From a virus: a DNA stretch of 64,000 nucleotides. The stretch is from positions 35,542-99,541 of IMG/VR virus record IMGVR_UViG_3300008116_000055, one strand, 5' to 3'. Below, one piece after another: positions 3,326 through 38,085 of the stretch. The position numbers were made by a program, and so were the translations under genes. The notes under the pieces were generated by a model, which was given only the letters and a program-made list of their open reading frames with translations, did no database searches and was not told the DNA's origin. Every line of letters starts with the position of its first letter. Within the stretch, counting starts at the first letter, position 1.

Positions 3326-3326
3326 T

Positions 3327-13121: not shown

Positions 13122-14039
13122 ATGGCAGTAGGTAGTTACGGTATAATTAGACCATCAGATGTGTCACCCGAAGACGTTGAAATTTATTTTCATTACGTTG
13201 CGGATAGAAATAGCACTTCGACTGTTACTCTTAAGAAATTAAGTTCAGCTGAAGTATTAACCCCTGTTTATCATAATTCGAACACCACGGATGATACTTC
13301 AGCACCTAATGTTGAAATCTTAGGTGGATTGTACAACTTAAAATTAACCGCATCCGATTTTGCGGATTTAGGTGTATACACACTCCATATAAGACCAAAA
13401 CAAATAAGAACTTCAATTACTGATTGTGGAATTTTAGCGTCTCTACCTTCAGTTAGAGGATTGGTCATTGACTTATCCAATGTTCCTGCTGATGATAGAA
13501 ATAAATTTACACCACAAGGACTTGTTGGATATAGAATTGAGTACATTAATTCATCTGACAATAAAAAAATTCCAAATTTTTATAGAATCGTAACATCTTC
13601 GTTCTACTGTACACCAATTGTTTCAAATTTAACAAGTACATCACAAAAAGCTATCAGATATCAGTATAGTGAACAGGCAACCAATTTGATGTTTTTAACA
13701 GTAACACCATCTTCAGCACCAACAAATAAACCAAATACGGTTCCATTTATTGGTGTACCATCACAAAAAATCATATTAACAAACACATATTTAAATCCCA
13801 CCACAATTGAGGTAGAAATGGTTGAACATGATGCTTCAACATTGGCACATGCTCTTTATGGTAATCAAAGTAAAGCGGTTTCACAAGGTATCTATACCAT
13901 CTATGACAATAATAATAACATCTATAGACAATACAATCTTTACGAAGTTAAAGACGAATTTAATGAAACATTATATGAGATTCGTGAAGAAAGAAATGAC
14001 GTAGACGAAACCTTAAACTTTGATACTATAACAGAATAA
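13122..14039 (+). CDS. Virion structural protein, unknown family (305 aa)
   Basis: This 305-aa protein begins MAVGSYGIIRPSDVSPEDVE and contains SVRGLVIDLSNVPADDRNKF. It has no catalytic motif, signal peptide or membrane helix. Beta-strand-like alternation dominates, and the last 50 residues turn acidic and Asn-rich. It has its own TATTTAT box, unlike the coupled genes before it, and its stop overlaps the start of the 1414-aa gene (TAATG). I do not recognise the family. A baseplate or tail-fibre adaptor role is a guess from its place between large tail proteins. Confidence 0.5.
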   Translation: MAVGSYGIIRPSDVSPEDVEIYFHYVADRNSTSTVTLKKLSSAEVLTPVYHNSNTTDDTSAPNVEILGGLYNLKLTASDFADLGVYTLHIRPKQIRTSITDCGILASLPSVRGLVIDLSNVPADDRNKFTPQGLVGYRIEYINSSDNKKIPNFYRIVTSSFYCTPIVSNLTSTSQKAIRYQYSEQATNLMFLTVTPSSAPTNKPNTVPFIGVPSQKIILTNTYLNPTTIEVEMVEHDASTLAHALYGNQSKAVSQGIYTIYDNNNNIYRQYNLYEVKDEFNETLYEIREERNDVDETLNFDTITE

Positions 14040-17000
14040 TGGCAAGGAGAAAAGTACCGAGTCAAGCGTCAAGCGGAGCGGAAACATTTAATGATTTCTT
14101 AGTTGGTAGACAGATAACTGATGGTTCATCTGCACTAACCAACACCGTATTTGCGCTTGATAAGTCTATCCCTGACAAAGATTCTAAAAATTTTACGAGT
14201 AACCCATTCTCTCAATTTTTAACATTAGATACGTTAAAAGAGGTTGAGGGTATTCAAACAACATCAGCAACACCAAGAAAAAAGAGAACTGACGAAGTAA
14301 GGTTTAAGGGCAACAAAAAATATGCCGATAAATCTTTATTTGGTTCGTTAACAAGTAGAATTTTAGTTTCATTAACTAGAATTATAAACAAGTTTCCGGG
14401 TGGAATTTCAATCTTATCGGACAGTCCTATAGGTGTTTCTAATTACAGTGCTAGTGGAATAACATATAACGATAGCACCAATACCACAACTTTTTACATC
14501 GAAAGAAGTAAAATATTCAATCCTTTTGATTTAGTTTTTGTTGAGCCTAATTCAGTAGTTAAACCAGAAACTGAAAACGAATTAAGAAATTTTTATTCGT
14601 CTTATACAAAATATGTTGTTGTTACAAATAACACACCATATCCAATTTTAGAATACAGCGAACCGAATACAAACAATAGAATTTACTTAAAGGTATATGG
14701 ACAACCATTTACTGGTTCAACATATTCAGAAAATTTATTGATAAGACCAAACGATGGTTTAGTTGAAGAATTTTTCGAAGGGTTAGACGATTTAGAGGAA
14801 TCACTTTTAAATAGAGAAACAAATCCAATTTATACTTCATCATTTAAAGTACCGAGAGATGTTCAAGACAATTCAAAAACATCTTTGGTTGATGTTGTAA
14901 TAACTTGGCCAATATCTAATGATGGTTATAACATACAAATAACCGGTTTTGATTACGATTTATATGTTGGTAAATTAAAAGATATTGCTGATGAGATAGA
15001 TGTGTATAAATCTAATCTAATGGTTAGATTTTTAGCCGCACCACAGTTATTTGAATTTGACACCGAAGATAAAAGAGCTGAAAGTGTATTTCAATTATAT
15101 GGTCAAAGCTTTGATAGTGTAAAGAAATACATAGACAACATAGCTTATATGAGAAACGTAAGTTATGATGGAATTAATAATTTACCTGATGTACTTTTAA
15201 AAAACTTAGCAGAAAATTTAGGTTTATCAACATTAAATTTATTCGATGAAAATAGTCTAAATGATGTTTTATATTCAAGATTACAATCAAATTATGACGG
15301 AGTATCAACCGGTACGAATTTAATTGAAGCTGAGTATGAGTTTTATCGAAGATTACTTATAAATCTTGCTCACATTTATAAATCAAAAGGAACAAAATCC
15401 TCTATTGATTTCTTTTTAAAATTTTTGGGGGCACCCGAGCCTTTGATTAGGATTGATGAATACATTTATAAAGTAACGTCAATTCCATCTAGTTTTAATT
15501 TACAACAAGACATATACGATGCGATTCAAGGTAACAAAAGATATTCTTACGCCACCTTTGATAGTACAGGTTTCACATATTCTAAAGTTTACTACTCAGC
15601 GTCAACAACATTTGACAGAGAGGGTTACCCTGTAGACGAAAAAACTGGACTACCAAGAAGAGCATATAACGAAACTGAAAACATATTCTTTGGTAAAGGT
15701 TCAGGATGGTACGATATTACATTATCACACCGTACTCCACTCGTTTTAGACAGTAGTAACTCAATACTAACGGGTAACACCAAAACAATTAAAACAAAGA
15801 ATAAAAACTACACATACGGAGAAGAATACTTTGATTTATATAGAACATTACCAGGTTTAGATACCGGTTATGAATTGGTTTCCGCGGTCGATAATAAAGA
15901 CGGAAAACCAATTGAGGATGATTATTTATTAATTTTAAATAGAAAAAACATTGGAATTTATATCTCACCATCACGAGGTATAGATTATGATATCTTTAGA
16001 CAAAGTAGAGAATTATTAATAAGTTTTGGTACAAATACTTTATTACCCCAAACAGGTAAAACTTTTGCTGAATTTTTAGACACCTTTATTCATGGACTTG
16101 TAACAAATTCTAACAAAATTCGTTACAAAAAAAATTATATTCAATTAGAAGATGTCTATAGAGATTATATATCACAAACAACAGGTTTTACACCATATAA
16201 TCAAATAAATGTTATTGAATTTGTTAATAAATTATCACCTTATTGGCCACAATTAGTTGAACAATTAGTACCATCAACCACTCAATGGACCGGCGGTAAT
16301 TTAATAGAAAATAACGTGTTTGGTAGACCAAAATATCAATATAGATATGATTGTCAACCATTAGAATTTATTGAGGAACTATACCCTGATTTTGAAAATG
16401 TAATTGAGGAAGATTTAGAAAATATTTTAGGTGAAGAAAATAATTTTAGAGGTTTAATAAACCTTACAGGTGTTACTTACTATCCTGTAATTGAAATTGA
16501 TGGAACAGTTTATGGTGGGGCCGACTACACGGGTCTAACATCCTCTATGTATGTGATTGTTAGTGGAACAAGTAACACTTCAAACAGTGCAAAATTATTT
16601 GATGCACAACCATTTACAGGATGTACAAGTGGGGTCACCAGTGGTGATACGGTAAATCTTTCCTTAATATGTGATTATAAAGATTATCTTGAACCTGATG
16701 TTACTAAAATTAAAGAACTATGGTTATCGGCGTTATCTGTATTGATTGATGACGTAACTATTACAAGAAATAGTGCAGGGTATGAACCCTATTCTGCTTT
16801 CACGGGAACCACAGGCCAAACATATTTTTCAGAAACAATACCATTAATAAAATACACAACATACACTGATGAAAATGGTGTTGAAAAAGTTAAGTTTTCA
16901 TCCGTAAAATTAGGTCCAAACGAATGTTCAGTGGTCGACTATTTTGATTATCGATTTGATGCCGATTACAAAATCACAAAAAATACAAATGGAATCAGTG

Positions 17001-18283
17001 TTAAAGTTTATACTGATAATACCGTTTATTGCGACTCAAACAGTGGATGTACATTAGTGAGTGATGTGTTTTTTGAAGTAATTGGATACAAAACAGGTAT
17101 CCAACAAGGTTCAACATGGCCATTTAACATTTATGCTAATTGTGTAAGTGGAACAAATGAAAATGCGGATGTTTACATTCAAAAAGTTAGTGATTGTGTA
17201 TATAAATTAACTGGTTTTTCAGAAAATGATGTAATAGATTTTAATATTGTAGATGCAGCAAATAAAGAAGTAAAATTCAAAATTGAAGGTCTACAACCCA
17301 AAATTGAACATGACCCATGTCCAACACCATCAGGAAAAAGTCACGTAGAATTATTTAGTATTGTTGGTTACCAAGGAACAATATCATCCCCAATTTCAGT
17401 TGTTTCAGGTGCAACATATTGTGACAATTACACAGGTTACACAATACAACCAAAAGTTGAATACAAATCAAACTTTAACTATGGTTTAAAATGTGACTCT
17501 ATAGTTTTAGTAGTTGATAGCGGATTAACCATTGACAACCAAACTACAGATGACAATATTGAAAGTTATATTAGTGGTGGTACGATAAGTGGTAAAAGTG
17601 TTTGTGATTTAAATGTTGGGGAATATGTTTTATCTGCATCTTACAAACAATGTACAGAATATAGTCACCAACAAATTGTGAATGGACCTGTATCAGGGTA
17701 TTCATTTACGTACAACTATCAAAAACTTGAAATTACAGACATTGAATGTTTAGCATCAATCAAGAAAAGTATCATTACAGGATTAACCCAAAATAATACT
17801 TATGAAGTTTTTGAAGTTTTACCAACAACACAACTAAGAGTTTATACAAATAGAATCATTGAAAATTTTGGAACACCTACAAATAGTGTTTACTTTTTTG
17901 ACGATAGGTTCCCAGAGGAATTACAAAAAAAACCAACAGATTTTATTGAACCTTGTTGTGACCATCCGAAAGAATTATATAACCATGGGGATTATTTAAT
18001 AAACAAATATGGTAAAACCATAGAAGTAATTGATGTCGACTTAAATTATTGCGATACAGGATTATACTTCAATCTAAATTTTGAATTAGACAATACACCA
18101 CTAACTGATGAATTTGTTGTTGTTTTCAATGGAAATAACAGCGACCAAATTCTGATGAAACACAAATACGATAAACATCCAAATATTGGATTCAACCTCG
18201 GTCAATATTATATCGATGCCAACCATTGTCCTACAGAACCAACTAATGAGGAATTAAGTAGTTCCATTTTTGATTGTCCATGA
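14039..18283 (+). CDS. Very large tail/baseplate protein with a tail protein I-like segment (1414 aa)
   Basis: The best landmark is LAHIYKSKGTKSSIDFFLKF followed by LGAPEPLIRIDEY near residues 437-470. This resembles the helical element of phage tail protein I and related wedge-linking proteins that connect baseplate and fibres. The N-terminal 300 residues contain a helical part, and residues above 800 are beta-rich with scattered cysteines and many Gly, Thr and Asn. No enzyme signature was seen. The start overlaps the preceding stop. Immediately downstream is the giant PT-repeat gene, so this protein is a reasonable candidate for the component to which the fibres attach. That link is inference. 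Confidence 0.6.
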   Translation: MARRKVPSQASSGAETFNDFLVGRQITDGSSALTNTVFALDKSIPDKDSKNFTSNPFSQFLTLDTLKEVEGIQTTSATPRKKRTDEVRFKGNKKYADKSLFGSLTSRILVSLTRIINKFPGGISILSDSPIGVSNYSASGITYNDSTNTTTFYIERSKIFNPFDLVFVEPNSVVKPETENELRNFYSSYTKYVVVTNNTPYPILEYSEPNTNNRIYLKVYGQPFTGSTYSENLLIRPNDGLVEEFFEGLDDLEESLLNRETNPIYTSSFKVPRDVQDNSKTSLVDVVITWPISNDGYNIQITGFDYDLYVGKLKDIADEIDVYKSNLMVRFLAAPQLFEFDTEDKRAESVFQLYGQSFDSVKKYIDNIAYMRNVSYDGINNLPDVLLKNLAENLGLSTLNLFDENSLNDVLYSRLQSNYDGVSTGTNLIEAEYEFYRRLLINLAHIYKSKGTKSSIDFFLKFLGAPEPLIRIDEYIYKVTSIPSSFNLQQDIYDAIQGNKRYSYATFDSTGFTYSKVYYSASTTFDREGYPVDEKTGLPRRAYNETENIFFGKGSGWYDITLSHRTPLVLDSSNSILTGNTKTIKTKNKNYTYGEEYFDLYRTLPGLDTGYELVSAVDNKDGKPIEDDYLLILNRKNIGIYISPSRGIDYDIFRQSRELLISFGTNTLLPQTGKTFAEFLDTFIHGLVTNSNKIRYKKNYIQLEDVYRDYISQTTGFTPYNQINVIEFVNKLSPYWPQLVEQLVPSTTQWTGGNLIENNVFGRPKYQYRYDCQPLEFIEELYPDFENVIEEDLENILGEENNFRGLINLTGVTYYPVIEIDGTVYGGADYTGLTSSMYVIVSGTSNTSNSAKLFDAQPFTGCTSGVTSGDTVNLSLICDYKDYLEPDVTKIKELWLSALSVLIDDVTITRNSAGYEPYSAFTGTTGQTYFSETIPLIKYTTYTDENGVEKVKFSSVKLGPNECSVVDYFDYRFDADYKITKNTNGISVKVYTDNTVYCDSNSGCTLVSDVFFEVIGYKTGIQQGSTWPFNIYANCVSGTNENADVYIQKVSDCVYKLTGFSENDVIDFNIVDAANKEVKFKIEGLQPKIEHDPCPTPSGKSHVELFSIVGYQGTISSPISVVSGATYCDNYTGYTIQPKVEYKSNFNYGLKCDSIVLVVDSGLTIDNQTTDDNIESYISGGTISGKSVCDLNVGEYVLSASYKQCTEYSHQQIVNGPVSGYSFTYNYQKLEITDIECLASIKKSIITGLTQNNTYEVFEVLPTTQLRVYTNRIIENFGTPTNSVYFFDDRFPEELQKKPTDFIEPCCDHPKELYNHGDYLINKYGKTIEVIDVDLNYCDTGLYFNLNFELDNTPLTDEFVVVFNGNNSDQILMKHKYDKHPNIGFNLGQYYIDANHCPTEPTNEELSSSIFDCP

Positions 18284-18373: not shown

Positions 18374-21300
18374 ATGGCATTAATAAAAATAAACACAGGT
18401 AATTTTGATGGTGAAATTGGTGTTATCACATTTTATCCTTGTACTGGCGGTACCTTGAATTTAGGTACTGTCGTGATGCCATATTATTACGACACAAACT
18501 ACTACTTAGGTACTTACTCAGTTTATTTTCCGTCACTTGATAAAACTTGTGTGGCTGAGATTCCTTGCCCTACACCTTCACCTACACCTTCACCAACACT
18601 TACACCATCATTAACACCAACACCAACAACCTTTACTTCAAATACCCCAACCCCAACAGTTACCAAAACCCCTACTGTTACACCTACGGTTACAAAAACA
18701 CCTACTGTTACCCCAACCAATACTATCACTCCAACAAATACTCCTACGAATACCGTAACTCCGACTAATACTCCAACAAACGAGCCTACAGTTACCCCAA
18801 CTGAAACTCCTACAGTTACTCCAACTAACACAGTAACTCCAACCAATACCCCAACAAATACCCCAACGGTTACCCCAACTGAAACTCCTACAGTTACCCC
18901 AACTAACACAGTAACTCCAACCGAATCACCAGCCAACACACCTACTGTAACTCCTACGAATACAGTTACACCAACCGAGACACCAACTGTTACTCCGACC
19001 GAAACTCCAACTGTAACCCCAACAAATACGGTAACCCCAACCAATACACCAACTGAAACACCTACCAACACCCCAACAAATACAGTTACCCCTACCGAAA
19101 CTCCAACTGTAACTCCAACAAATACGGTAACCCCTACCGAAACACCTACCAATACACCAACTCATACAGTAACCCCTACCGAAACACCAACCAATACCCC
19201 AACTAATACACCGACTGAAACACCCACTAACACCCCAACAAATACTGTTACCCCAACTAATACACCAACCGAAACACCAACCGAAACACCAACCAATACC
19301 CCAACCAACACCGTAACTCCAACTGTTACCCCAACTGTTACCCCAACTGTAACTCCAACCAATACTGTTACCCCAACTAATACACCAACCGAAACACCAA
19401 CCGAAACACCAACCAATACTCCAACCAACACCGTAACCCTAACCGTTACCCCTACCGAAACACCAACCAACACCCCAACTAATACTCCGACTAACACAGT
19501 AACACCAACACTGAGTCCAACCGTTACCCCTACCGAAACACCTACCAATACCCCAACCAACACCATAACACCAACTAACACTCCGACTAATACCTCAACT
19601 GTAACTCCAACCAATACTGTAACTCCAACCAATACACCCACTGTAACACAAACTGAAACACCTACCCTAACACCAACAAATACTGCAACCGTTACACCAA
19701 CTCAAACCCCAACCAATACTCCTACCAATACTGTTACACCAACGGTTACCCCAACTAACACTCCAACTGTAACTCCAACAAATACGGTAGCTCCAACTAA
19801 TACACCTACAAATACACCAACCGAAACACCAACAAATACCCCCACCAACACACCAACAAATACTCCCACAGAAACACCAACACTTACACCAACCAACACC
19901 GTAACCCCTACCAATACAGTCACACCAACCAATACTGTTACAGTGACTCCAACAGAAACTGTGACACCAACTAATACACCTACAAACACCCCAACTAATA
20001 CACCAACAAATACGGTTACACCTACGAATACTCCAACCAACACAGTAACTCCAACAAATACTCCAACTAACACTCCAACATTAAGTCCTACCAATACCGT
20101 AACTCCTACCAACACCCCAACAAACACACCGACGAATACAGTAACTCCAACTCAGACACCTACAAATACTCCTACAAATACCGTTACACCAACCAATACC
20201 CCAACCAATACCCCAACCAACACCGTAACTCCAACAAACACTCCTACCAACACTCCTACAAACACTCCCACAAATACCGTAACTCCAACCAACACCGTAA
20301 CTCCGACTAATACACCTACAAACACACCAACGAATACTGTGACTCCTACATTGAGTCCTACGGTAACACCAACTAACACCGTAACACCAACCAATACTCC
20401 AACCAATACACCTACCAATACTGTGACTCCTACATTGAGTCCTACGGTAACACCAACTAACACCGTAACACCAACCAATACTCCAACTAACACGCCGACC
20501 AACACTCCTACTAACACTGTAACACCAACATTGAGTCCAACAGTGACTCCAACCAATACAGTTACCCCCACAAACACCCCGACAAATACTGTAACTCCAA
20601 CCAATACTGTAACTCCAACAAATACACCAAGTGTAACTGTGACGGTTTCACCAACACCAGCACCTTCTTGTGACATTGATTATACAATGTTACCCTCACC
20701 AACTCCAACGAGCACCCCAACACCCACCAATACTCCAACGGTAACACCAACCAACACTGTAACACCATCCGTTACATTAACCAATACTCCCACAAACACA
20801 CCAACCAATACAGTAACTCCTACTAACACCCCAACTAATACACCAACAAAAACTGTTACACCAACTTTAACTCCAACAAATACTCCAACTAATACTGTAA
20901 CACCAACCAATACACCAACAAACACTCCTACCAATACAGTTACTCCTACATTGAGTCCAACAGTTACTCCTACCAATACTGTTACCCCAACCAATACTCC
21001 TACCAATACCCCAACCAATACAGTTACACCTACATTGACTCCAACAGCGACCCCAACCAACACCGTAACCCCTACAAATACCCCAACATTAAGCCCCACC
21101 AATACTCCAACCAACACCGTAACCCCTACAAATACTGTAACACCAACGAATACCCCAACCAACACTCCGACAAACACCCCAACAAACACTGTAACACCAA
21201 CCAACACTCCAACAAACACTGTAACACCGACCAATACTCCAACAAATACCCCTACTAATACTGCTACTCCTACAAATACACCAACTAATACTCCTACCAA

Positions 21301-24300
21301 TACGGTAACCCCTACAAATACACCAACTAACACTCCTACCAATACGGTATCCCCAACACTGACACCTACTAACACCCCTACGAACACCGTAACACCAACA
21401 AACACACCAACTAACACACCAACTAATACTGTAACACCAACTAACACTCCTACCAACACCCCAACCAACACAGTTACTCCTACCAATACGCCAACTAATA
21501 CTCCTACCAATACGGTAACGCCAACATTGAGTCCAACAGTGACTCCAACCAATACCGTTACACCAACTCAAACCCCTACAAATACCCCAACTAACACCGT
21601 AACACCAACCAATACACCTACGAATACCCCCACTAATACTCCAACAAATACCGTAACCCCAACAAACACGCCTACGAATACACCAACAGTAACCCCTACC
21701 AATACCGTAACCCCAACAAATACACCGACGGTAACTCCGACCAATACAGTCACACCAACTAATACACCAACCAACACTCCTACCAATACGGCTACCAATA
21801 CAGTTACTCCTACCAATACACCCACAAATACACCAACAAATACGGTTACACCAACTAACACTCCTACTAATACTCCAACAAATACCGTAACACCGACACT
21901 GACACCTACAAATACCCCGACAAACACTCCAACCAATACAGTTACTCCAACCAATACTGTAACTCCTACCAACACCCCTACCAACACCCCAACAAATACT
22001 CCAACAAATACAGTCACCCCAACTAATACTCCAACCAATACTGTCACCCCTACCAATACTCCTACAAACACCCCCACCAATACTGTCACCCCTACCAATA
22101 CTCCTACCAATACTCCTACAAATACAGTAACTCCAACTAACACCCCAACAAATACTCCAACAAATACAGTCACCCCAACCAATACTCCTACCAATACGCC
22201 CACCAATACTGTCACCCCTACCAATACTCCTACCAATACTTCTACAAATACAGTAACTCCAACTAATACTCCTACCAATACGCCTACTAATACTGTAACT
22301 CCAACCAACACCCCAACTGTAACTCCTACCAATACTGTTACACCAACAAACACTCCTACTAACACACCAACCAATACTGTTACACCAACAAACACTCCTA
22401 CTAACACACCAACCAATACGGTAACTCCTACCAACACCCCAACTAACACACCAACCAATACGGTAACTCCTACCAACACCCCAACTAACACCCCAACAAA
22501 TACTGTTACACCAACAAATACTCCCACCAATACCCCAACAAACACGGTGACTCCAACAAACACTCCTACTAACACCCCAACAAATACAGTAACACCAACA
22601 TTGAGTCCTACAGTAACTCCTACGAACACAGTAACTCCTACAAATACTCCCACAAACACTCCGACCAACACCGTTACACCAACAAATACCCCAACCAATA
22701 CCCCGACAAATACAGTAACCCCAACTAACACACCTACCAACACTCCAACTAATACAGTAACTCCCACATTAAGTCCAACTGTGACTCCTACTAATACTGT
22801 GACTCCTACAAACACTCCTACCAACACACCAACAAATACAGTTACACCTACATTGAGTCCAACAGTGACTCCAACCAGCACCGTAACCCCAACTAATACG
22901 CCAACATTAAGTCCTACCAATACTCCAACCAACACTGTTACTCCTACAAATACCGTTACACCAACCAATACACCTACCAATACCCCAACAAACACCGTAA
23001 CCCCAACACTAACCCCAACTAACACTCCAACCAATACTCCTACAAATACGGTATCTCCAACCAACACCGTAACCCCAACAAATACACCAACTAACACTCC
23101 AACCAATACTCCCACCAACACTGTTACTCCAACCAACACCCCGACCAACACTCCGACTAATACAGTAACTCCTACCAATACCCCAACAAATACCCCAACA
23201 AATACAGTTACACCTACATTGAGTCCAACGGTGACTCCTACTAATACTGTAACTCCTACCAACACTCCGACCAACACACCAACCAATACTGTTACACCTA
23301 CATTGAGTCCAACGGTGACTCCTACTAATACTGTTACACCCACTAACACGCCAACTAACACTCCTACTAACACTGTAACACCAACTCAGACTCCCACGAA
23401 CACGCCTACAAATACAGTAACACCTACTAACACACCTACTAATACACCAACAAATACGGTAACACCAACCAACACCCCTACGAACACGCCGACTAACACC
23501 CCAACCAATACAGTCACACCAACTAATACCGTAACTCCAACAAATACGCCAACCAATACTCCTACCAATACGCCAACCAATACCGTAACACCAACTCAGA
23601 CACCGACAAATACCCCAACAAAAACTGTTACACCAACATTGAGTCCGACTGTGACACCAACAAATACTGTTACTCCAACCAATACCCCCACCAATACTCC
23701 AACTAACACAGTAACCCCAACCAATACTCCAACTGTAACACCTACGAATACTGTTACACCTACAAATACACCGACGAATACACCAACCAATACGGTAACT
23801 CCAACCAACACCCCAACCAATACCCCAACTAGTACTGTTACACCAACATTAAGCCCGACACTAACACCAACCAATACAGTAACTCCAACATTGAGTCCGA
23901 CTGTAACTCCAACAAGAACGGTTACACCTACTTTAACACCAACCAATACACCGACAAATACGGTAACCCCTACAAATACTCCCACCAACACCCCAACAAA
24001 CACTCCAACCAATACAGTCACCCCAACAAACACCGTAACACCAACCAACACCCCCACAAACACTCCAACCAATACTCCAACAAACACCGTAACACCAACC
24101 AACACACCAACCAAGACTGTAACTCCAACCAATACCCCAACCAATACTCCAACTAATACAGTAACCCCAACTAATACACCAACCAATACTCCAACGAACA
24201 CCGTAACTCCAACCAACACCCCAACCAACACTGTAACTCCAACAAATACACCTACAGTTACCCCGACTAACACAGTAACACCTACACTGAGTCCGACTGT

Positions 24301-27300
24301 AACCCCTACGAATACAGTTACACCAACTCAGACACCTACAAATACTCCAACTAACACCGTAACTCCTACCAACACACCAACTAACACACCAACTAACACT
24401 GTTACACCCACAAATACACCAACCAATACAGTTACTCCTACCAATACACCTACTAACACTCCAACTAACACAGTAACCCCTACCAATACCCCTACGAACA
24501 CTCCTACTAATACAGTAACTCCTACAAACACCGTAACACCAACCAACACACCAACCAATACTCCAACCAACACTGTCACCCCTACATTGAGTCCTACGGT
24601 AACTCCTACGAACACAGTTACCCCTACTAACACACCGACTAAGACCGTGACTCCCACATTGAGTCCGACTGTGACTCCTACAAATACTGTTACACCAACT
24701 CAAACCCCTACGAATACACCAACTAATACAGTTACACCAACTAATACACCTACAAACACCCCAACAAATACAGTTACACCTACAAATACCCCAACTAACA
24801 CTCCAACCAATACAGTAACCCCTACACTGAGTCCAACCGTAACACCAACTAATACTGTCACACCCACGAATACACCAACCAATACCCCTACGAATACTGT
24901 AACCCCTACCAACACCCCTACTAATACTCCTACAAATACGGTTACACCAACTAACACTCCAACAAGAACGGTTACACCTACTTTAACACCAACCAATACA
25001 CCGACAAATACGGTAACCCCTACAAATACTCCCACCAATACCCCAACAAACACGGTGACTCCTACATTAACACCAACTGTAACTCCTACAAATACCGTAA
25101 CACCAACCAATACTCCTACAAATACTCCTACTAACACAGTAACACCTACCAATACCCCTACAAACACACCAACAAACACTGTAACTCCAACTAACACCCC
25201 TACTAATACTCCGACGAATACGGTAACTCCAACCAATACCCCAACAAACACACCTACCAACACCGTAACACCTACAAATACTCCTACTAAAACTGTGACT
25301 CCCACATTGAGTCCAACAGTTACACCTACCAACACCGTAACACCTACAAATACTCCCACAAATACCCCTACTAACACAGTAACACCAACAAATACACCAA
25401 CCAACACTCCAACTAATACCGTTACCCCAACTAACACACCTACAAATACACCAACAAATACTGTGACTCCTACATTGAGTCCAACAGTTACACCTACCAA
25501 CACCGTAACACCTACAAATACCCCTACCAACACCCCAACAAATACAGTAACACCTACATTGAGTCCGACTGTGACTCCAACTAACACCGTTACGCCAACT
25601 AACACACCTACCAACACTCCAACTAACACCGTAACCCCTACCAGCACCCCCACAAGAACCGTTACACCTACATTAACTCCAACCAATACCCCTACTAATA
25701 CCGTAACCCCAACAAATACCCCAACCAATACCCCTACTAATACCGTAACCCCAACAAATACCCCAACAAACACTCCAACTAATACCGTAACCCCAACAAA
25801 TACCCCAACAAACACTCCAACTAATACCGTAACCCCTACCAACACCCCCACAAGAACCGTTACACCTACATTAACTCCAACCAACACACCAACTAATACT
25901 GTAACCCCAACCAACACTCCTACAAACACTCCAACGAATACAGTTACACCAACCAATACACCAACTAACACCCCAACCAACACTGTAACTCCAACATTGA
26001 GCCCTACAGTGACTCCCACTAATACAGTTACACCAACTAACACACCAACCAATACCCCAACCAACACCGTAACTCCAACAAACACCCCTACTAAAACTGT
26101 AACTCCCACATTGAGCCCTACGGTAACCCCAACAAACACTGTTACTCCAACCAACACCCCAACTAATACTCCAACTAATACTGTTACTCCAACCAACACC
26201 CCAACCAACACCCCAACTAATACTGTTACACCGACCAACACACCAACGAATACTATAACTCCTACTAATACTCCTACCAAAACTGTTACACCAACTCTAA
26301 CCCCAACGAATACACCGACCAATACTCCTACAAACACAGTAACCCCAACCAATACCGTAACACCAACTAACACTCCAACCAACACTGTAACTCCAACTAA
26401 TACACCAACCAACACCCCAACTAATACTCCGACAAACACTGTTACGCCAACCAATACACCAACAAAAACTGTCACACCAACTTTAACCCCAACCAACACC
26501 GTAACACCAACCAATACCCCGACTAATACACCTACAAATACTGTTACTCCAACTAATACACCTACAAACACTCCAACCAACACCGTAACCCCAACCAATA
26601 CACCAACTAATACGGTGACTCCCACATTGAGTCCTACGGTAACTCCTACAAATACTGTAACCCCTACTAATACTCCTACCAAAACTGTTACACCAACTCT
26701 AACCCCAACGAATACTCCTACCAATACTGTAACCCCTACCAATACTCCTACCAATACTGTAACCCCTACCAATACTCCTACCAATACTCCAACAAATACT
26801 GTTACCCCAACTCAGACACCTACTAACACTCCAACGAATACAGTCACACCAACCAACACACCAACTAATACTGTAACTCCTACATTGAGTCCTACGGTAA
26901 CTCCGACCAATACGGTAACCCCAACAAACACACCAACTAACACACCAACTAATACTGTAACGCCAACTAATACACCAACAAAAACTGTTACACCAACTTT
27001 AACTCCAACCAATACCCCAACTAATACTGTAACACCTACCAATACACCAACAAACACTGTTACGCCAACTTTAACTCCAACCAATACCCCGACCAATACC
27101 CCAACAAATACCGTTACTCCAACCAACACAGTTACCCCGACCAATACCCCAACTAAGACAGTCACCCCAACTCAGACTCCCACCAATACTCCAACCAATA
27201 CCCCCACAAACACTGTAACTCCAACAAACACTGTTACGCCAACAAATACTCCAACTAATACGGTAACACCGACTAACACTGTAACGCCGACCAATACCGT

Positions 27301-30300
27301 AACCCCCACTAACACTGTAACTCCAACGAATACAGTTACACCGACCAATACTCCAACAAGAACTGTTACGCCTACCTTAACCCCTACAAATACTCCAACA
27401 AATACGGTAACTCCGACCAACACACCAACTAACACACCAACTAACACAGTTACCCCGACTAACACCCCAACCAATACGGTAACCCCTACTAACACACCTA
27501 CTAATACACCAACCAAGACTGTTACTCCTACATTAACTCCTACCGTTACTCCAACGAATACAGTTACACCGACCAATACCCCGACTAATACTAATACCCC
27601 TACTAATACACCTACAAACACTCCTACTAACACAGTAACCCCAACCAATACACCAACAAAAACTGTCACACCAACTTTAACCCCAACAAATACACCGACC
27701 AACACACCAACTAATACAGTGACTCCAACCAATACTGTTACCCCAACAAACACTCCAACCAAGACTGTTACTCCTACATTAACACCAACCAACACTCCGA
27801 CCAATACGGTAACCCCTACAAATACCCCAACTAACACCCCAACAAACACTGTTACGCCAACTAATACACCAACCAAGACTGTTACTCCTACATTAACTCC
27901 AACCAATACCCCTACTAATACCGTAACCCCAACAAATACCCCAACAAACACTCCAACCAATACTGTAACACCAACGAATACTGTTACCCCAACATTGAGT
28001 CCTACTAATACCCCAACTAATACTGTAACACCCACCAACACACCCACCAACACACCAACAAATACTGTTACACCAACCAATACACCAACAAAAACCGTAA
28101 CACCTACATTAACACCAACAAACACTCCTACAAACACCCCAACAAATACCGTTACTCCAACCAACACCGTAACCCCAACTAACACACCAACTAATACGGT
28201 GACTCCCACCAATACCGTTACACCTACAAACACTGTTACACCTACTAATACTGTTACACCTACTAATACTGTAACACCAACTAATACACCAACCAAGACT
28301 GTAACACCTACATTAACTCCAACCAATACTCCAACAAACACCGTAACACCAACTCAGACACCGACTAATACTCCTACAAATACCGTAACTCCTACCAATA
28401 CACCAACAAAAACTGTCACACCAACTTTAACTCCAACAAATACCCCAACCAATACTGTTACACCAACTCAAACCCCTACGAATACACCAACTAATACAGT
28501 TACACCAACTAACACAGTCACCCCGACCAACACACCTACCAATACCCCAACCAATACTGTTACACCTACCTTAACTCCTACAAATACTCCTACAAATACA
28601 GTAACCCCAACCAATACACCAACAAAAACCGTAACACCTACATTAACACCAACAAACACTCCTACAAACACTCCCACGAATTCCGTTACTCCTACTAATA
28701 CTGTTACCCCCACTAACACCCCAACTAACACAGTAACGCCGACTAATACTGTTACTCCAACCAATACCGTAACTCCTACAAATACGGTAACCCCAACCAA
28801 TACTGTAACGCCAACTAATACCCCAACCAAGACAGTTACACCAACTCAGACACCTACTAATACACCAACCAACACTGTAACACCAACTAACACACCTACC
28901 AACACTCCAACTAACACCGTAACTCCTACTAATACACCAACAAAAACTGTTACACCAACTCTAACACCAACAAATACCCCTACGAACACTGTAACTCCAA
29001 CCAATACACCAACAAAAACTGTTACACCAACTTTAACTCCGACCAACACGGTAACCCCAACCAATACTCCTACTAATACTCCTACTAATACAGTAACCCC
29101 CACCAATACTCCGACCAATACGGTGACTCCCACATTGAGTCCTACAGTTACCCCTACGAACACCGTTACACCAACAAATACCCCAACCAAGACTGTAACT
29201 CCTACATTAACTCCTACAAATACCCCTACTAATACTGTAACCCCTACCAATACTCCAACTAATACACCTACTAAAACTGTCACCCCTACAGTTACTCCTA
29301 CTAATACAGTTACCCCAACCAACACTCCCACAAACACTCCTACAAACACTGTAACCCCTACATTGAGTCCTACAGTTACCCCTACGAACACCGTTACACC
29401 AACAAATACCCCAACCAATACTCCGACAAATACAGTTACACCGACCAATACGCCCACAAATACTCCTACTAATACTGTTACACCCACTAACACCCCAACA
29501 AATACTCCAACAAATACAGTTACACCGACCAATACACCCACAAATACACCAACAAATACAGTTACACCGACCAACACACCAACAAAAACTGTAACACCAA
29601 CTTTAACTCCAACCAATACACCCACAAATACACCAACAAATACGGTTACACCAACAAATACAGTAACCCCAACTAATACACCGACTAAGACAGTCACCCC
29701 AACCAATACCCCAACAAATACTCCAACCAACACACCAACTAACACGGTTACCCCAACCAATACTGTTACACCAACAAACACACCCACTAATACACCAACC
29801 AAGACTGTAACTCCTACATTGAGTCCTACAGTTACTCCTACTAATACAGTAACACCCACCAACACACCAACTAACACGGTTACCCCAACCAATACACCAA
29901 CCAAGACTGTTACACCTACATTAACACCTACTAATACTCCGACCAATACTGTAACCCCTACATTGAGTCCTACAGTTACCCCTACGAACACCGTTACACC
30001 AACAAATACTCCTACAAACACCCCAACCAAGACTGTTACACCTACATTAACACCTACTAATACTGTTACACCTACATTAACACCAACCAATACTCCAACG
30101 AACACTCCTACCAATACTCCTACAAACACGGTAACACCAACAAACACTGTTACACCAACAAATACTCCTACAAACACTCCGACCAAGACTGTTACACCTA
30201 CATTAACACCTACTAATACTCCTACGAATACTGTTACCCCAACAAATACTCCAACAAGAACTGTTACTCCTACATTAACACCGACCAATACTCCTACGAA

Positions 30301-31177
30301 TACTGTTACCCCAACAAATACTCCAACAAATACACCTACTAATACAGTTACACCAACTAACACACCTACTAATACAGTTACACCAACCAACACCCCAACC
30401 AAGACTGTTACACCTACCTTAACTCCTACAAACACCCCAACCAATACTCCAACAAACACTGTTACGCCTACTAATACCCCGACTAATACGGTAACTCCTA
30501 CAAATACCCCAACCAATACCCCAACAAATACCGTTACTCCAACTAATACACCAACAAAAACTGTTACACCAACTCTAACCCCAACAAATACTCCAACCAA
30601 CACACCAACTAATACGGTTACCCCAACAAATACTGTTACCCCCACAAATACTCCAACCAAGACTGTCACCCCTACCAATACTCCTACAAACACCCCAACC
30701 AATACGGTAACTCCTACAAATACCCCAACCAATACTCCAACAAACACTGTTACGCCTACTAATACTCCGACTAATACAGTTACACCAACTCAGACACCTA
30801 CTAATACACCAACAAAGACAGTTACACCAACTTTAACACCGACCAATACAGTTACACCTACATTGAGTCCTACAAATACTCCTACCAATACAGTAACACC
30901 AACAAATACACCAACTAACACCCCAACAAATACCGTTACACCAACGAATACACCAACTAACACTCCGACTAACACTGTAACCCCAACTAATACCGTAACC
31001 CCAACAAGAACACCAGCAGCTACTGTTAGTCCAACAAATACTCCAACAAATACTCCTACGAATACTGTTACACCAACCAATACACCTACCAATACACCTA
31101 CTAATACTGTTACAATACACCTACCAATACACCTACTAATACTGTTACACCTACTAACACTCCAACCAAAACTGTAA
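18374..31177 (+). CDS. Giant Thr/Pro/Asn-repeat fibre or stalk protein, 5' part (frame broken near 31115)
   Basis: This is the first part of a gene that originally or alternatively runs to 34539. Residues 1-65 form a small domain with Cys pairs ([19 protein letters not shown]) like the modules in neighbouring genes. From about residue 66 onward the protein is a nearly uninterrupted run of NTPT and NTVTPT units, often organised as a 14-residue period, with variants [16 protein letters not shown] and RTVTPTLT. There are no aromatic or hydrophobic-core residues, so an extended, disordered or polyproline-like stalk is expected, possibly O-glycosylated. The unit contains no N-X-S/T sequon. Near 31115 an exact 35-bp duplication shifts the frame, and the last 25 codons, ending in QPKL, are out-of-frame readthrough. 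Structural virion role is inferred from location. Confidence 0.8.
20655..20697 (+). other. Non-repeat island (CDIDYTMLP) inside the PT array
   Basis: Within the giant frame, around residue 760-775, the repeat is interrupted by [15 protein letters not shown], the only Cys, Asp, Ile, Tyr and Met cluster in more than 12 kb. It sits where the other proteins of the locus place a cysteine-rich module between two PT linkers, so it may be the remnant of a lost module. Confidence 0.55.
31080..31149 (+). repeat. Exact 35-bp tandem duplication that breaks the giant reading frame
   Basis: Positions 31080-31114 and 31115-31149 are identical. Because 35 is not a multiple of 3, the upstream frame runs out of phase and stops at 31177, while the repeat-coding frame continues in another phase from 31105. 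Deleting one copy gives 16131 nt from 18374 to 34539, exactly 5377 codons including the stop. It may be a real slippage event, a reversible switch or an assembly error. Confidence 0.9.
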
Positions 31178-34100
31178 CACCAACCAATACTCCTACTAAT
31201 ACTGTTACACCCACAAACACCCCAACAAACACTCCAACAAATACAGTCACACCAACTAATACACCTACAAATACACCTACTAACACAGTCACACCCACCA
31301 ACACACCGACCAATACAGTGACTCCAACAAGAACTCCGGCCGCCACTGTTAGTCCTACCCTTACACCCACAAACACCCCAACCAATACCGTTACACCAAC
31401 CAATACACCAACAAGAACCGTCACACCAACTTTTACACCTACTAACACTCCAACGAATACAGTCACACCAACAAATACTCCAACCAATACGCCGACTAAT
31501 ACTGTTACACCAACCAATACCCCAACCAATACTGTTACTCCAACAAGAACTCCGGCAGCCACTGTTAGTCCTACCCTTACACCAACCAATACCCCAACCA
31601 ATACTCCAACAAATACAGTAACACCAACCAACACTGTCACACCGACCAATACTCCTACTAATACACCAACAAAAACTGTTACACCAACTTTTACACCAAC
31701 CAATACTCCAACCAATACTGTAACACCAACCAATACTCCTACAAACACCCCAACAAACACCGTTACTCCTACCAATACTCCTACCAATACTGTAACTCCT
31801 ACGAGAACACCAGCGGCTACTGTTAGTCCAACATTAACACCGACTAACACACCAACAAACACACCTACTAATACTGTTACTCCAACAAATACAGTTACAC
31901 CGACCAACACCCCTACTAACACCCCAACCAACACTGTTACTCCAACCAACACCCCAACTAATACTCCAACAAATACGGTAACTCCAACCAATACCCCTAC
32001 TAATACCGTAACCCCGACAAGAACACCAGCTGCCACTGTTAGTCCAACCTTAACTCCAACTAATACTCCAACCAACACTCCAACTAATACAGTCACCCCT
32101 ACGAATACAGTTACACCTACCAATACACCAACAAGAACAGTTACACCAACTTTAACTCCAACTAATACACCAACCAACACTGTAACACCAACTAACACCC
32201 CAACTAATACTCCAACAAATACGGTAACTCCAACAAATACCCCAACAAATACTGTTACACCAACAAGAACACCAGCGGCTACTGTTAGTCCAACATTAAC
32301 ACCAACAAATACACCTACCAATACCCCAACGAACACAGTAACCCCCACAAATACTGTTACCCCAACCAATACCCCAACAAGAACTCCAGCAGCCACTGTT
32401 AGTCCTACGGTAACTCCAACAAATACCCCAACAAATACTGTTACACCAACAAGAACACCGGCTGCCACAGTTAGTCCAACCGTAACACCAACTAACACTC
32501 CAACAAATACTGTTACACCAACATTGACACCAACCAAAACAGTAACCCCAACGGCTAGTCCTCAGTATGTTGCTGCTAGATTTGAATCATGTTGTCCTGG
32601 TGACACCAATGTTTATTATGGTCAAGTACCATTAGGTACATTGTTAGGTACGGTATTTTATTTACAAGACATTCAGTTATGTGCAACGTATGTGCAACAG
32701 GTAGGACCTGGAGGTACGATTTACACTACTGTTCAGACAAGTTGTGCACAATGTTTAGGAGAAACTCTAAATTTTTGTCCATCACCAACCCCGACACCAA
32801 CACCAACCAGAACTGTTACACCTACGAATACGGTAACCCCTACCAATACACCAACAAGAACAGTTACACCAACTCTCACACCAACCAATACCCCAACAAA
32901 TACTGTTACTCCAACAAGAACTCCAGCCGCCACTGTTAGCCCTACGGTAACCCCTACCAATACACCAACAAGAACAGTTACACCAACTTTAACCCCGACT
33001 AACACCCCAACCAATAGTGTTACTCCTACGAGAACACCATCCGTAACCCCTACCAATACACCAACAAAAACAGTTACACCAACTTTAACTCCTACATTAA
33101 CACCAACAAGCACAGTAACACCATCACCATCCTTACAGGTTGGTTATGTTTATTTATTACCATGTTGTGATGGTGGTATTTTAGGTAATACTATTTCTTA
33201 TTTAAGTATAACAACTAATTTGACCTATGTTCAAAGCGGTATTTCACAAGGTCAAACTATTGTTATAAATGGATGTTGTTATTTTGTTGAAGGTTATAGT
33301 CAAACCTACTCACCACCAAACTTTAGTGGGGTTGACGGGTATTATCCACCATCATCATTTAGTGTTGATACATGTGAAACATGTATTGGAGCTAACCCAT
33401 GCGCCACTTGGATTTTCGATTTACAAAGATGTGGATGTTGTGGTACAACAGGACAATATACAATTCAATTTGGTTGTCAAAATGGATTTAACCCAAATCT
33501 TTTAGTAAACCGTTATATATCAATTAATGGTTGTTGTTATTTTGTTACAAACTCAGTCGGACCAGGAGTACCTGGTTCCGCAATCACTGCGTATGGTACA
33601 TACAATACATGTACTGAATGTGAAACTTATCACCCTTGTCCTTCACCAACCCCAACAGTTACACCAACAGTTACACCAACTTTAACCCCAACAAAAACAC
33701 CGACAAATACACCAACAAGGACAGTTACTCCAACTTTAACACCAACCAATACTCCTACAAATACACCAACCAAGACTGTAACTCCAACCTTTACCCCTAC
33801 AAATACACCAACCAAGACTGTAACTCCAACCTTTACCCCTACAAATACTCCAACCAAGACTGTAACTCCAACCTTTACCCCTACAAATACTCCAACAAGG
33901 ACAGTTACTCCAACTTTAACACCAACCAATACTCCTACAAATACACCAACCAAGACTGTAACTCCAACAAACACTCCAACAAACACTCCAACACCATCTC
34001 CGGTTTCAAATCCGTCATCAACCCCAACCCCAACTCCAACTCCGACCCCAACCCCAACTCCACCATGTGTTTGTGAGTCATATATTATTACAGGATTAGG

Positions 34101-34539
34101 ACCTGGTAATATAGTTAACTATACCACTTGTTGCGGTGGAGGAACACCCACAGAAATACTTGACCCAAATGTGTACCCAGCAAGTGGTACAATTGAGATA
34201 TGTTCATGTAGTATTCCAAGTGTATTAGGTCCTTATGGTGGGGAGATAACGTATGATGGTGCTTGTGGTGATTGTTTGTGTACAGACTTTTTTGTTGATA
34301 TTAATGATTTAACAGCCTCAGATGATAATCAAGTATACTTTGCATACCAATGTTGTGATGGTACATTCACAACACAAGGTTATAACGCCCCTGGTAATTA
34401 TAGCGTTTGTCTTATGAGAGTGACAAATGTGTTTATATTGTTTAGAGGAAACTTCGTACCACCAATATATACTTCGCAATATACATACGGTACTGGTTGT
34501 GGTGATTATTGTAACACATTTTGTGGAGAAGCATGTTAA
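31105..34539 (+). CDS. Giant PT-repeat fibre protein, 3' part with cysteine-rich C-terminal modules
   Basis: This frame is open from 31105, just after a TAA at 31102, and has no credible start of its own. The first start-like codon is a GTG at 31318 that is simply a repeat valine, so it is the continuation of the frame that began at 18374. PT repeats run to about 32565, including many [10 protein letters not shown] variants. Then come cysteine-rich modules at about 32565-32780 ([17 protein letters not shown]), 33136-33645 ([30 protein letters not shown]) and 34063-34539 ([24 protein letters not shown], ending CGEAC), separated by further PT linkers. The modules presumably form disulfide-stabilised or metal-binding tips exposed at the end of the stalk. 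Expression depends on how the 35-bp break is bridged. Confidence 0.75.
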
Positions 34540-34583: not shown

Positions 34584-37148
34584 ATGCCAGCACAAATAAT
34601 AACATTTCAAAATTGTTTAGACCCAGCGTCATACTATGATTTTGTCGTCGATGACAGTTTAGTATTATCGGGTGACACGATTTTTGCTGATTACCAATGT
34701 TGGTCTTCAACAGGAAATGTCGGAGGTGGACCGTCAGGTACGGTTATTTTTAGTGGTTATACAACCTGTGAACAATGTAACGACGATTTTAATGGGTGGC
34801 AATTTGAACATTGCCAAATACCAGGGGCATTTGTTTACTTTGGTTTAAAAAATTCAGAAGTTAATCAGTATTTCCAAAGTACAGGTGCAACAATTTCTTA
34901 TGATGGTACATGTTACAACTATACAGGAGTTTATGAACAAGGCACTGGTAGCACCACTTACAATTATACTGTTGCACAATTAATTTCTGAAAATGCTCTT
35001 TTTACAAATTGTATTGACTGTTTAACACCACCAAGTCCAACTCCTACCCCTACTCCAACACCCACACCAACTTTATGTTACTCAGGTATAACCGATTCAC
35101 CAAATTGGTATTATACGGACTGTTGTGGTGTATATCATAGTGGTTCATTTTCACCAACATATGTTTGTTACGACCCGAGTTACCCATATGCAGGGATATC
35201 TTTCAATGGTTTCTGTACTGTAGTTTGTCCGAGTGTGACCCCAACTCCAACACCCACATTAACACAAACTCCTTCCGAAACTCCTTCCGAAACCCCAACC
35301 CCAACAAATACTGTAACTCCAACAAAAACTCCAAGTCTAACTCCGACACCTTCGGTTACACCAACAAATACACCCACAAATACACCGTCAAGTACGTTAG
35401 GTTCGACACCTTCGGTTACACCAACAAATACACCCACAAATACCCCTTCATTAACACCTTCGGTAACTGTTAGTGTAACACCCACAGTAACCCCATCACC
35501 TTCACTAGTACCTACAGGATGTACTCAATATACATTCTCATTACACCCAATTTATTTTTTAACGCAAGCCGGACCTTATAATATTTCGGGAACAACAACA
35601 GGAGGAACTATAGTATTAATTGCAACTGGTGTGACAACATCTCAATTATTATCTGGGTATACCGCACTTGTGTGTTATTCAATAACAACATTTACAGTTC
35701 AAAGTACTGGTACGTGTACTAATTCTGTGAATTTTACATTACCTGTACCTATTGTATCTCCAACCCCGACCCCAACAAAAACCCCAACACCAAGTCCATC
35801 CGGTAATCCAGTTGCGACCCCAAGTGTAACACCTACTAATACCGTAACCCCGACCCTGACCCCAACACCATCAGGTGGTTGTAGTGATTCAGTTAGAAAT
35901 ACTCTTGCCGCAACGAATTCATATTCTGCCGTTGGTAGACAAGGTATGGTTTATTCATCATCAAATAACAAAGCATACGTTCTAAACGCATCAAGTGTTG
36001 TACAATCTTTTGTCCCAAATTCAACAAGTTTAACAAATGAATTTACATGGTCAGGAAGTAGTTTATTATTAGGATATAACTCAACTAACAACAAATTATA
36101 CAGTTGGGAATCATCATTTCCTGTTAAAATGTTAATAAGAAATTTAAACACAAACACAACATCGTCAATATCAATTTCGGGAATAACATCAGGTTTAGGA
36201 AAAATTGAATATAATTCTGTTTTAAATAAAATTTATGCATTTAGTCAAACAGGTGGAAATTTTTCAGTTTCACAAATTAGTGTCATAGATGGTTCAACAG
36301 ATACTTTTACAAACCAAATTACAGGTATAACTTTATCAAACCCTGAAGCGACTGTTTACAATCCTAATAATAATAAATTATATTTCGCTCAGAGTGGTAG
36401 AATATATTCTTGTTCTGGTAATACTATTTCGTTAGATGGTACATCACTACCAATCACCTCAGCAAGTTTAATTGCTTTGGATGTGACGAACAATATTATT
36501 TATTTAGTTAGTGCGTCTACGGTATACAAAATAGATGTTGCAACAAACACCACACTTACTTTAAATTCAATATCGGGAGCAACTTGGATTTTTGGCTCAA
36601 CAAGGTCTATGATATATAATCCTGATAACGGTAAATTATATATTAGCAGATATTCAACATTGTCAGATGGATTCTTAGGTGTTCTAGACCCGACAACAGG
36701 TATATTTAGTGAAATTATTGGTGACGGTATTTCTAAACCTTTGTATGTACCGACAAATACAATATATGGTATAAATGATAATGCTCTATACGAAATTTGT
36801 GGTTCATCCTTGGTAGCGGTTTCCCCAACCCCAACCCCTACTTTAACTAAAACCCCAACCCCAACTAAAACTCCATCAGTTACACCAACACCTAGTCCGA
36901 CATATCAAGAATGGAATATGGTTGGATGTACAAATTACTGTAGTGGGGTTGTGTTGTGTTCAGGTTCGTATAGTGTAACATTATACACATTACCAAATGT
37001 GGTCAATATTTATGATTCAGGTGTTACCATCTACACGAATAATAACTTAACAACAACATTTGATGGGTTTTTTCAAATTGGAAGTGTAATTTATGAAGTA
37101 GTTTCTGGTTCGGTAACTACTCAGTATACAATTGGTGATGGATGTTAA
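34584..37148 (+). CDS. Modular fibre/adhesin protein with PT linkers and a beta-propeller (854 aa)
   Basis: The protein is a string of beta-rich, cysteine-containing modules joined by PT linkers. Modules lie at residues about 1-150, 160-215 (CYSGITDSPNWYYTDCCGVY), 312-390 (GCTQYTFSL...) and 775-854. Between residues about 430 and 745 lies a repeated pattern NNKLY/NKIY/NGKLYI (for example YNPNNNKLYFAQSG, YNPDNGKLYISRYS) typical of NHL/YVTN-type beta-propeller blades. Propellers in tail tips commonly bind host surface glycans or proteins, so this is the best receptor-binding candidate in the window. No signal peptide is present, consistent with a virion protein. Two direct repeats with a 60-bp offset (35344 and 35404) show recent linker duplication. 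Confidence 0.65.
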   Translation: MPAQIITFQNCLDPASYYDFVVDDSLVLSGDTIFADYQCWSSTGNVGGGPSGTVIFSGYTTCEQCNDDFNGWQFEHCQIPGAFVYFGLKNSEVNQYFQSTGATISYDGTCYNYTGVYEQGTGSTTYNYTVAQLISENALFTNCIDCLTPPSPTPTPTPTPTPTLCYSGITDSPNWYYTDCCGVYHSGSFSPTYVCYDPSYPYAGISFNGFCTVVCPSVTPTPTPTLTQTPSETPSETPTPTNTVTPTKTPSLTPTPSVTPTNTPTNTPSSTLGSTPSVTPTNTPTNTPSLTPSVTVSVTPTVTPSPSLVPTGCTQYTFSLHPIYFLTQAGPYNISGTTTGGTIVLIATGVTTSQLLSGYTALVCYSITTFTVQSTGTCTNSVNFTLPVPIVSPTPTPTKTPTPSPSGNPVATPSVTPTNTVTPTLTPTPSGGCSDSVRNTLAATNSYSAVGRQGMVYSSSNNKAYVLNASSVVQSFVPNSTSLTNEFTWSGSSLLLGYNSTNNKLYSWESSFPVKMLIRNLNTNTTSSISISGITSGLGKIEYNSVLNKIYAFSQTGGNFSVSQISVIDGSTDTFTNQITGITLSNPEATVYNPNNNKLYFAQSGRIYSCSGNTISLDGTSLPITSASLIALDVTNNIIYLVSASTVYKIDVATNTTLTLNSISGATWIFGSTRSMIYNPDNGKLYISRYSTLSDGFLGVLDPTTGIFSEIIGDGISKPLYVPTNTIYGINDNALYEICGSSLVAVSPTPTPTLTKTPTPTKTPSVTPTPSPTYQEWNMVGCTNYCSGVVLCSGSYSVTLYTLPNVVNIYDSGVTIYTNNNLTTTFDGFFQIGSVIYEVVSGSVTTQYTIGDGC

Positions 37149-37211: not shown

Positions 37212-38060
37212 ATGGGATTAAATGTTCGTTTATACAATATAATCAATGATGGTACGTACTCAATTAGATACAAGTCCGGTGATAGCCCGTATCCTGAAAC
37301 GAACAATTCAACATTTACACTTTACGCAACAGGTTTAACTCTTACAGCTGTTACAATTACAAACTTAAGTTTTAATACTCAATATTGGGTTAAAATGACA
37401 GACGACACTACAGGTCGTTATATAATTAAAAATATTTACACTCACGATAGTAAAGCGTTTCCTTGTTATGATACACTATGTTTTAGTGTTGAGGTACAGT
37501 GTGACCCACCAATAAGTCCAACTCCAACACCTACAGTTACAAGAACCCCAACCCCAACACCTACAGTTACAAAAACACCAACAGTTACCGCTACACCATC
37601 TAAGACACCGAACGCTTCAATTACACCAACCCCTACTCCAACAAAAACTCCTGGTTTATCACCAACCCCAACAGTTACCAAGACTCCAACTCCTACTCCA
37701 ACACAAAACACCCCTTCATCATATTGTTTATGGTACAGTATTGAAACGATAGATGAAAATATACAATATGAAGTTACTTGGACACTAAAAGATAATTTAG
37801 GTAGTGTAACAACCGCCACTTCAAATATCCCAATTACTTTTTATAAGGTTAATAGTTCAGGGGTGGTAATTGCGGTATACACATCACCACAATGGCAAAT
37901 ATTCATTGGTTCATCACAGGATAGTGGAAATATTACACTCAATCCAAGTGCTGGTGAATACTTAGTTGCACAAACCGGTTTAAGTGGAACCATAACAGAC
38001 CCTAACTATTGTGGTATTGCATTTATAGATTGTGATTTAAATCCCGATTATTGTAATTAA
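37212..38060 (+). CDS. Two-module fibre protein with PT linker (282 aa)
   Basis: Residues 1-97 form a beta-rich domain resembling fibronectin type III ([38 protein letters not shown]) that ends in a Cys-containing strand ([13 protein letters not shown]). A PT linker (about 98-172) with Lys and Arg follows. A second beta domain (about 173-282) carries Cys residues near both ends. The build mirrors its neighbours: small sandwich domains spaced by PT segments. It is likely a minor tail-fibre or decoration component. No enzyme motif is present. Family not recognised, and the fibronectin-like assignment is tentative. Confidence 0.55.
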
Positions 38061-38079: not shown

Positions 38080-38085
38080 GAAATA

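Follow-up and report, generated by a model that had tools for sequence, protein, structure and literature searches.

What use could a virus have for a single 16-kb gene that codes mostly for threonine, proline and asparagine? The gene in question lies at positions 18374 to 34539 of a 64,000-nucleotide stretch of DNA (the window; positions 35,542 to 99,541 of IMG/VR virus record IMGVR_UViG_3300008116_000055, which has 232,626 bases). Our answer is that this uncultured, very large bacterial virus probably builds a giant, mucin-like appendage and coats it with sugar itself, because its genome also has genes for two members of the enzyme family that initiates mucin-type sugar coating of threonines. 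Specifically, we put at about 60% the probability that the gene product is a giant adhesin attached to the virion, with a stalk that the phage O-glycosylates through a GT60 glycosyltransferase system of its own. An extended, mucin-like and perhaps O-glycosylated stalk had been proposed in an initial annotation made from the sequence by itself; that proposal is partly supported overall, and it is the best-supported reading given the two GT60-like enzymes and the association of such enzymes with Thr-Pro (TP) repeats across viral contigs.

In the window the gene is split between an open reading frame (ORF) at 18374-31177 (4267 aa) and an overlapping frame that runs up to 34539. The intact gene is a stop-free 16,419 nt (5472 codons) and is found in identical form in six other IMG/VR records of the same virus population (L095, L096, L097, L099, L100 and L101). 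Compared with it, the window copy lacks 253 nt (gene positions 12740-12992), and the missing segment is bracketed exactly by two copies of a 116-nt sequence (gene positions 12628 and 12916), the sole long exact repeat in the gene. Given the six intact records and a loss located at this repeat, the frame break at ~31113 is an assembly collapse in the window record and no feature of the gene; a real frameshift, phase variation or a split gene is thereby ruled out. The initial annotation had thus been right in substance to restore the frame, and its restored length of 5376 residues fell about 96 short. Records G005, G016 and G017 carry the gene broken in other ways, within or near the same stretch as in the window record. 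The phage population is also strikingly clonal, in that most of the records L009-L013, L027, L045, L048, L053 and L055, which were drawn from separate metagenomes, match the window either exactly or with a single base changed over ~24 kb.

The 5,472-residue protein is mostly Thr/Pro stalk, with three globular Cys-rich regions, separated by TP linkers, near the C-terminus. Its parts, in window coordinates, are as follows.

18374..18571, + strand: conserved N-terminal domain (66 aa), probable virion-attachment end, with the same 1414-aa gene upstream in its relatives
18572..31112, + strand: main, leading part of the Thr/Pro/Asn/Val repeat stalk, read in the frame of ORF 18374-31177, from translation, composition and tandem arrays
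31113..31115, + strand: junction with 253 nt missing, source of the apparent frame break
31116..32565, + strand: end part of the repeat stalk (frame of ORF 31318-34539), from the ORF translation
32566..32790, + strand: Cys-rich globular domain 1, with similar sequence in relatives G008 and G012
33136..33654, + strand: Cys-rich globular domain 2, with CCYFV twice and TP linkers on both sides; in G012 and G011, absent from G008
34066..34539, + strand: tip domain at the C-terminus (157 aa, Cys-rich, all-beta) with the stop codon, probably the end that binds the receptor

The main stalk block comprises 4758 residues (58-4815), where the initial annotation had counted about 4600 residues of tandem units, and further TP linkers separate the C-terminal domains. 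Threonine makes up 48% of the block, proline 21%, asparagine 16%, valine 8.8% and leucine 1.8%, and there are just five aromatic residues, such that the earlier description of a repeat free of aromatic and hydrophobic residues is nearly correct for the former and only partly right for the latter. The earlier statement that the repeat unit has no N-X-S/T sequon holds, and with only two sequons in all 4758 residues N-glycosylation of the repeat is ruled out. A mucin-like O-glycosylated domain is marked by long tandem repeats rich in Thr, Ser and Pro, which the stalk has, and by dense O-glycosylation, which is presumed here. The spacing in the stalk is strict: 97% of threonines have another Thr at i+2 and essentially none has one at i+1, and successive prolines are 4 or 6 residues apart with few exceptions. 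It is possible that the stalk adopts a regular, non-globular fold. If extended (at 0.25-0.31 nm per residue) it would have a contour length of ~1.2-1.5 micrometres; as a bare coil it would be much more compact. The giant gene is sharply unlike the remainder of the window in GC skew and composition, and in the virus record we found no tRNA genes that could serve so Thr-heavy a gene.

We considered whether the array might be a chimera of assembly, or a recent expansion by slippage at the DNA level, with no protein product. Assembly did go wrong at 31113 in the window record, but the identical 16.4-kb gene occurs in six records, its longest exact repeat is 116 nt, and diverged relatives share its architecture. 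Moreover, the 14-aa unit is present in 128 copies that have 126 different DNA versions, and pN/pS (the ratio of nonsynonymous to synonymous differences) between adjacent stalk units is 0.27. Third-position identity among identical units is 0.389, compared with a random expectation of 0.394, and the observed and expected values in three relatives are 0.428 and 0.426, 0.418 and 0.396, and 0.455 and 0.447. Because the third codon positions of identical units vary like random codon choice, these data show that the stalk is maintained at the peptide level, as selected coding sequence. The array is therefore neither an artefact nor a recent DNA expansion, and we give that explanation virtually no credence for the array as a whole; the initial annotation had named an assembly artefact as what would undo its reading, and the array is genuine.

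The relatives of the protein were located through the gene directly upstream.

14039..18283, + strand: 1414-aa gene, module marker in relatives (74 loci in viral contigs)

This gene found no family match in profile searches. The N-terminal domain of the giant protein (residues 1-57, or 66 residues if the next Cys-containing tail is included) is 79-98% identical in at least nine other loci, where it lies at once or shortly downstream of the 1414-aa gene; its structure model is of low confidence, with a predicted local distance difference test score (pLDDT) of 61. Stalks in the relatives are of 2,000-4,600 residues and have other TP chemistries (SVTP, TITPTVTP and similar): G008 has an SVTP stalk in a protein of 2940 aa in total, G012 a TITPTVTPSTSVTP stalk (2737 aa), and G011 a SVTPSITPTSSVTP stalk (4688 aa open, then a break). 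What the stalks share is the placement of hydroxyl groups. A Thr or Ser follows Pro in 98.7-99.6% of cases and precedes it in 99.0-99.6%, and the fraction of hydroxyl residues at each second position is 0.90-0.99 across four stalks that differ in sequence. The C-terminal tip is 33-43% identical among relatives, with invariant cysteines. An AlphaFold model of the tip (pLDDT 86.5, predicted template-modelling score 0.80) predicts an all-beta domain except for one short helix; this model found no fold match in the PDB or BFVD, the tip sequence profile had no significant match in the PDB, and a Pfam scan covering the piece 31318-34539 returned no family. Among annotated phages, the N-terminal domain, the C-terminal domain, the upstream gene and the downstream TP gene all lack homologues.

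In G008 the upstream protein is 97% identical and the stalk wholly different, while stalk units are saturated at synonymous sites. That units are randomised at third positions, yet close relatives carry another chemistry (as seen in the window gene and in L104, L105 and L106), suggests that stalks are swapped as modules through recombination in the conserved ends. A conserved base, a fast-evolving tip and an exchangeable stalk would fit an N-terminally anchored adhesin.

The case for a sugar coat begins with two adjacent genes at record positions 210764-213296, whose products (GT60a and GT60b) match PF11397, which we take to be the Pfam model of GT60, at 3e-72 (244 bits) and 7e-48 (164 bits), with a curated cut-off of 21. 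Each has the motif DSH, a DxH in place of DxD, at residue 96 in GT60a and residue 94 in GT60b, and across 75 viral sequences it is conserved at 97-99%; GT60a had no match among solved structures. The DxH motif is typical of GT27 and GT60, families that share polypeptide Ser/Thr O-glycosylation (PMC7185993), and the GT60 enzyme pp-alpha-GlcNAcT of Trypanosoma cruzi starts mucin O-glycosylation on Thr and acts on the Thr-rich, Pro-flanked peptide KPPTTTTTTTTKPP (PMC3769586). Outside the window the record has two sugar/glycosyltransferase clusters (99.3-111.4 kb and 210.8-227 kb) that encode a UDP-N-acetylglucosamine (UDP-GlcNAc) 2-epimerase, several GT2 enzymes, methyltransferases and nucleotidyltransferases.

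These elements might work together as follows. The giant protein would be an appendage on the surface of a contractile-tailed jumbo phage, held at the tail or baseplate by its 66-aa N-terminal domain, as conservation and gene order suggest. The Thr/Pro stalk, a hydroxyl-dense and non-globular chain of 4,758 residues selected at the peptide level, would serve as a spacer, and the C-terminal Cys-rich beta domains would form a tip that evolves fast and probably has the host surface as its target. In the cytoplasm of the infected cell the GT60-like enzymes, aided by the two clusters, would add O-linked sugar to the stalk threonines, and the sugar coating would stiffen and hydrate the chain, giving a mucin-like stalk. 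We infer the glycosylation, extension and virion location of the stalk protein; the part played by GT60 in O-glycosylation and stiffening is suggested by the enzyme family, the DxH motif, co-occurrence with TP repeats, genes that sometimes lie side by side, and the virion glycoproteins of a cultured phage.

Co-occurrence was assessed in viral contigs that have TP repeats and a length of 50 kb or more, with one record of the same population removed. PF11397 is present in 16 of 31 such contigs and in 0 of 17 random viral contigs (Fisher p ~2e-4); conversely, TP coding sites are present in 16 of 20 PF11397 contigs and in 3 of 17 random ones (Fisher p ~2e-4). In L318 and L328/L329 a TP-repeat gene lies directly before a GT60 gene; L338 and L340 have a single gene between the two. 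Such adjacency was seen at 5 of 80 loci, compared with one genuine case in 120 random ones, a count that is suggestive and, by itself, weak. Among annotated phages the enzyme occurs in three records only, XacN1, RAS14 and CM1, and both XacN1 and RAS14 combine GT60 with many TP coding sites. The cultured jumbo phages RaK2, CBB, Atu_ph07 and G (346-498 kb) have neither TP coding sites nor PF11397.

It could be argued that phage glycosyltransferases, GT60 included, modify phage DNA or host surface polysaccharide, and that they co-occur with TP repeats merely because both are found in large related phage genomes. DNA glucosylation is named as a reported role in connection with the four core glycosyltransferases of moraphages, in the paper describing them (PMC12619734), and many of the enzymes in the clusters are not of the GT60 type; the relatedness of the contigs, to which we return below, points the same way. 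Genome size alone, however, does not explain the co-occurrence, because the four cultured jumbo phages of 346-498 kb have neither feature. In addition, the DxH motif and the family group these enzymes with polypeptide Ser/Thr transferases, and GT60 comes right after TP-repeat genes in some contigs. We consider this explanation improbable.

Several observations do weigh against glycosylation of the stalk by GT60a and GT60b. The contigs tested are non-independent lineages, and the Fisher p-values are consequently optimistic. The GT60 genes of this phage are ~141 kb away from the stalk gene, and their acceptor is a presumed one, the family also holding the hydroxyproline-specific enzyme Gnt1 (PMC6939170). 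The phage is known here from sequence, and the end that attaches to the virion is likewise a putative one. Among relatives of this phage selected by RNR, PF11397 is present in 0 of 9 records and TP sites in 6 of 7, and some large TP-repeat contigs have no PF11397 (G036, 261 kb; G037, 212 kb; and RNR relatives such as G092, 245 kb); either some TP proteins do without PF11397 or these records are not complete. The same three contigs would be expected if the stalk were a bare entropic tether, that is, an unglycosylated spacer, disordered or polyproline-II-like, that runs from a virion anchor to a receptor-binding tip while GT60 is otherwise employed. TP linkers of 30-110 residues are indeed common between domains, both in the neighbouring genes and in XacN1. 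A bare tether nevertheless leaves the two-way association of PF11397 with TP repeats and their occasional adjacency unaccounted for, and gives no reason for a hydroxyl group at about every second position across four different stalks. We think it rather unlikely.

Modification of the stalk by a host system was also considered. The general O-glycosylation system of Bacteroidota recognizes the motif D-[ST]-[AILVMT] and has non-cytoplasmic proteins as targets (PMC12871550). The motif does not occur in the 4758-residue stalk, which has no D-[ST]-x at all; a C-terminal domain has one D-T-C. Because the motif is absent from the stalk and the system targets non-cytoplasmic proteins, Bacteroidota-type O-glycosylation is unlikely; the host may belong to another group. 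The one RNR match among bacterial genomes (45%, to a Mycoplasmatales metagenome-assembled genome) is uninformative as a clue to the host.

The nearest parallel to the proposed stalk and its enzymes is found in the mucins of T. cruzi and their GT60 transferase, where a Thr-rich, non-globular chain is likewise paired with a DxH-bearing GT60 enzyme that starts O-glycosylation on Thr (PMC3769586, PMC7185993). Those mucins are eukaryotic, made in the Golgi and anchored by glycosylphosphatidylinositol, whereas the phage case consists of a gene pair, a presumed cytoplasmic reaction, and a putative acceptor and linkage. In mycobacteriophages, Freeman et al. reportedly found in 2023 that capsid and tail tube subunits bear glycans at their C-termini (cited in PMC12619734), so these too have virion proteins with glycans, but apparently no mucin-like stalk. 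We know of no GT60 partner for TPX of the archaeal virus TTV1 or for ORF567 and ORF1940 of ATV. These proteins, likened here by description, are viral proteins with TPTP-type proline-rich regions (PMC4456609), but the viruses are archaeal and unrelated to this phage. Moraphages resemble it in several features: they too are jumbo phages, known from aquatic metagenomes, that have contractile tails, gp25 and gp6 baseplate genes and core glycosyltransferases; a term search of the paper on them found neither threonine repeats nor the largest protein mentioned (PMC12619734).

The jumbo phages XacN1, RAS14 and CM1 (of Xanthomonas and Stenotrophomonas) have a GT60-like enzyme 45-48% identical to GT60a. 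At least two glycoproteins, of unstated identity, were found in XacN1 by proteomics according to the available part of its genome paper, which does not mention Thr/Pro linkers and draws no link between linkers, enzyme and glycoproteins (PMC5852040). In the XacN1 records (L560, L562 and L563), ten annotated proteins (ORF174, 180, 190, 232-236, 325 and 384) have mucin-like Thr/Pro linkers. The TP regions in the XacN1 proteins examined are ~30-110 residues long, compared with 4,758 here.

We found no description in the literature of a giant phage Thr-Pro protein. If our reading is correct, mucin-type O-glycosylation of Thr-Pro repeats, well known in protists and animals, is also phage-encoded in bacteria; it would give a joint function to many uncharacterised jumbo-phage glycosyltransferases and TP-linker proteins, and would account for the display of so long and hydrated a stalk by such a phage. 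Tentatively, one might go further and envisage a class of large phages, spanning several lineages, with a mucin system of their own, in which giant Thr/Ser-Pro stalks, swappable arrays and dedicated GT60-type enzymes acting in the bacterial cytoplasm yield glycosylated appendages of about a micrometre.

The contractile tail is seen in baseplate genes within the window and, in other parts of the record, in matches to a tail sheath (1e-59) and a tube (1e-24). Downstream of the giant gene, window positions 34584-41361 hold a cluster of similar multi-domain proteins with small Cys-rich domains and TP linkers.

2873..5159, + strand: baseplate wedge genes, gp25-like (2873-3325) and gp6-like (3327-5159), with PHROG matches of 4e-19 and 2e-22
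34584..37148, + strand: 854-aa protein whose Cys-containing domains are joined by TP linkers
37212..38060, + strand: 282-aa protein with a TP linker
38440..41361, + strand: 973-aa protein with TP linkers between Cys-rich domains

The 854-aa protein matches phrog_15511, which we dismissed as a domain family since its matches fall largely on the TP linker. Lastly, we note that the glycan cluster includes a gene (L115:5357-6586; record 218356-219585) for a 409-aa protein that resembles the RuBisCO large chain (Pfam 1e-31; PDB 2cwx, 2e-33). In the alignment the region of the carbamylated-Lys motif (KEDE) is retained and the loop-6 Lys is apparently gone, and because of this loss the protein probably belongs with the RuBisCO-like proteins and not with the carboxylases.

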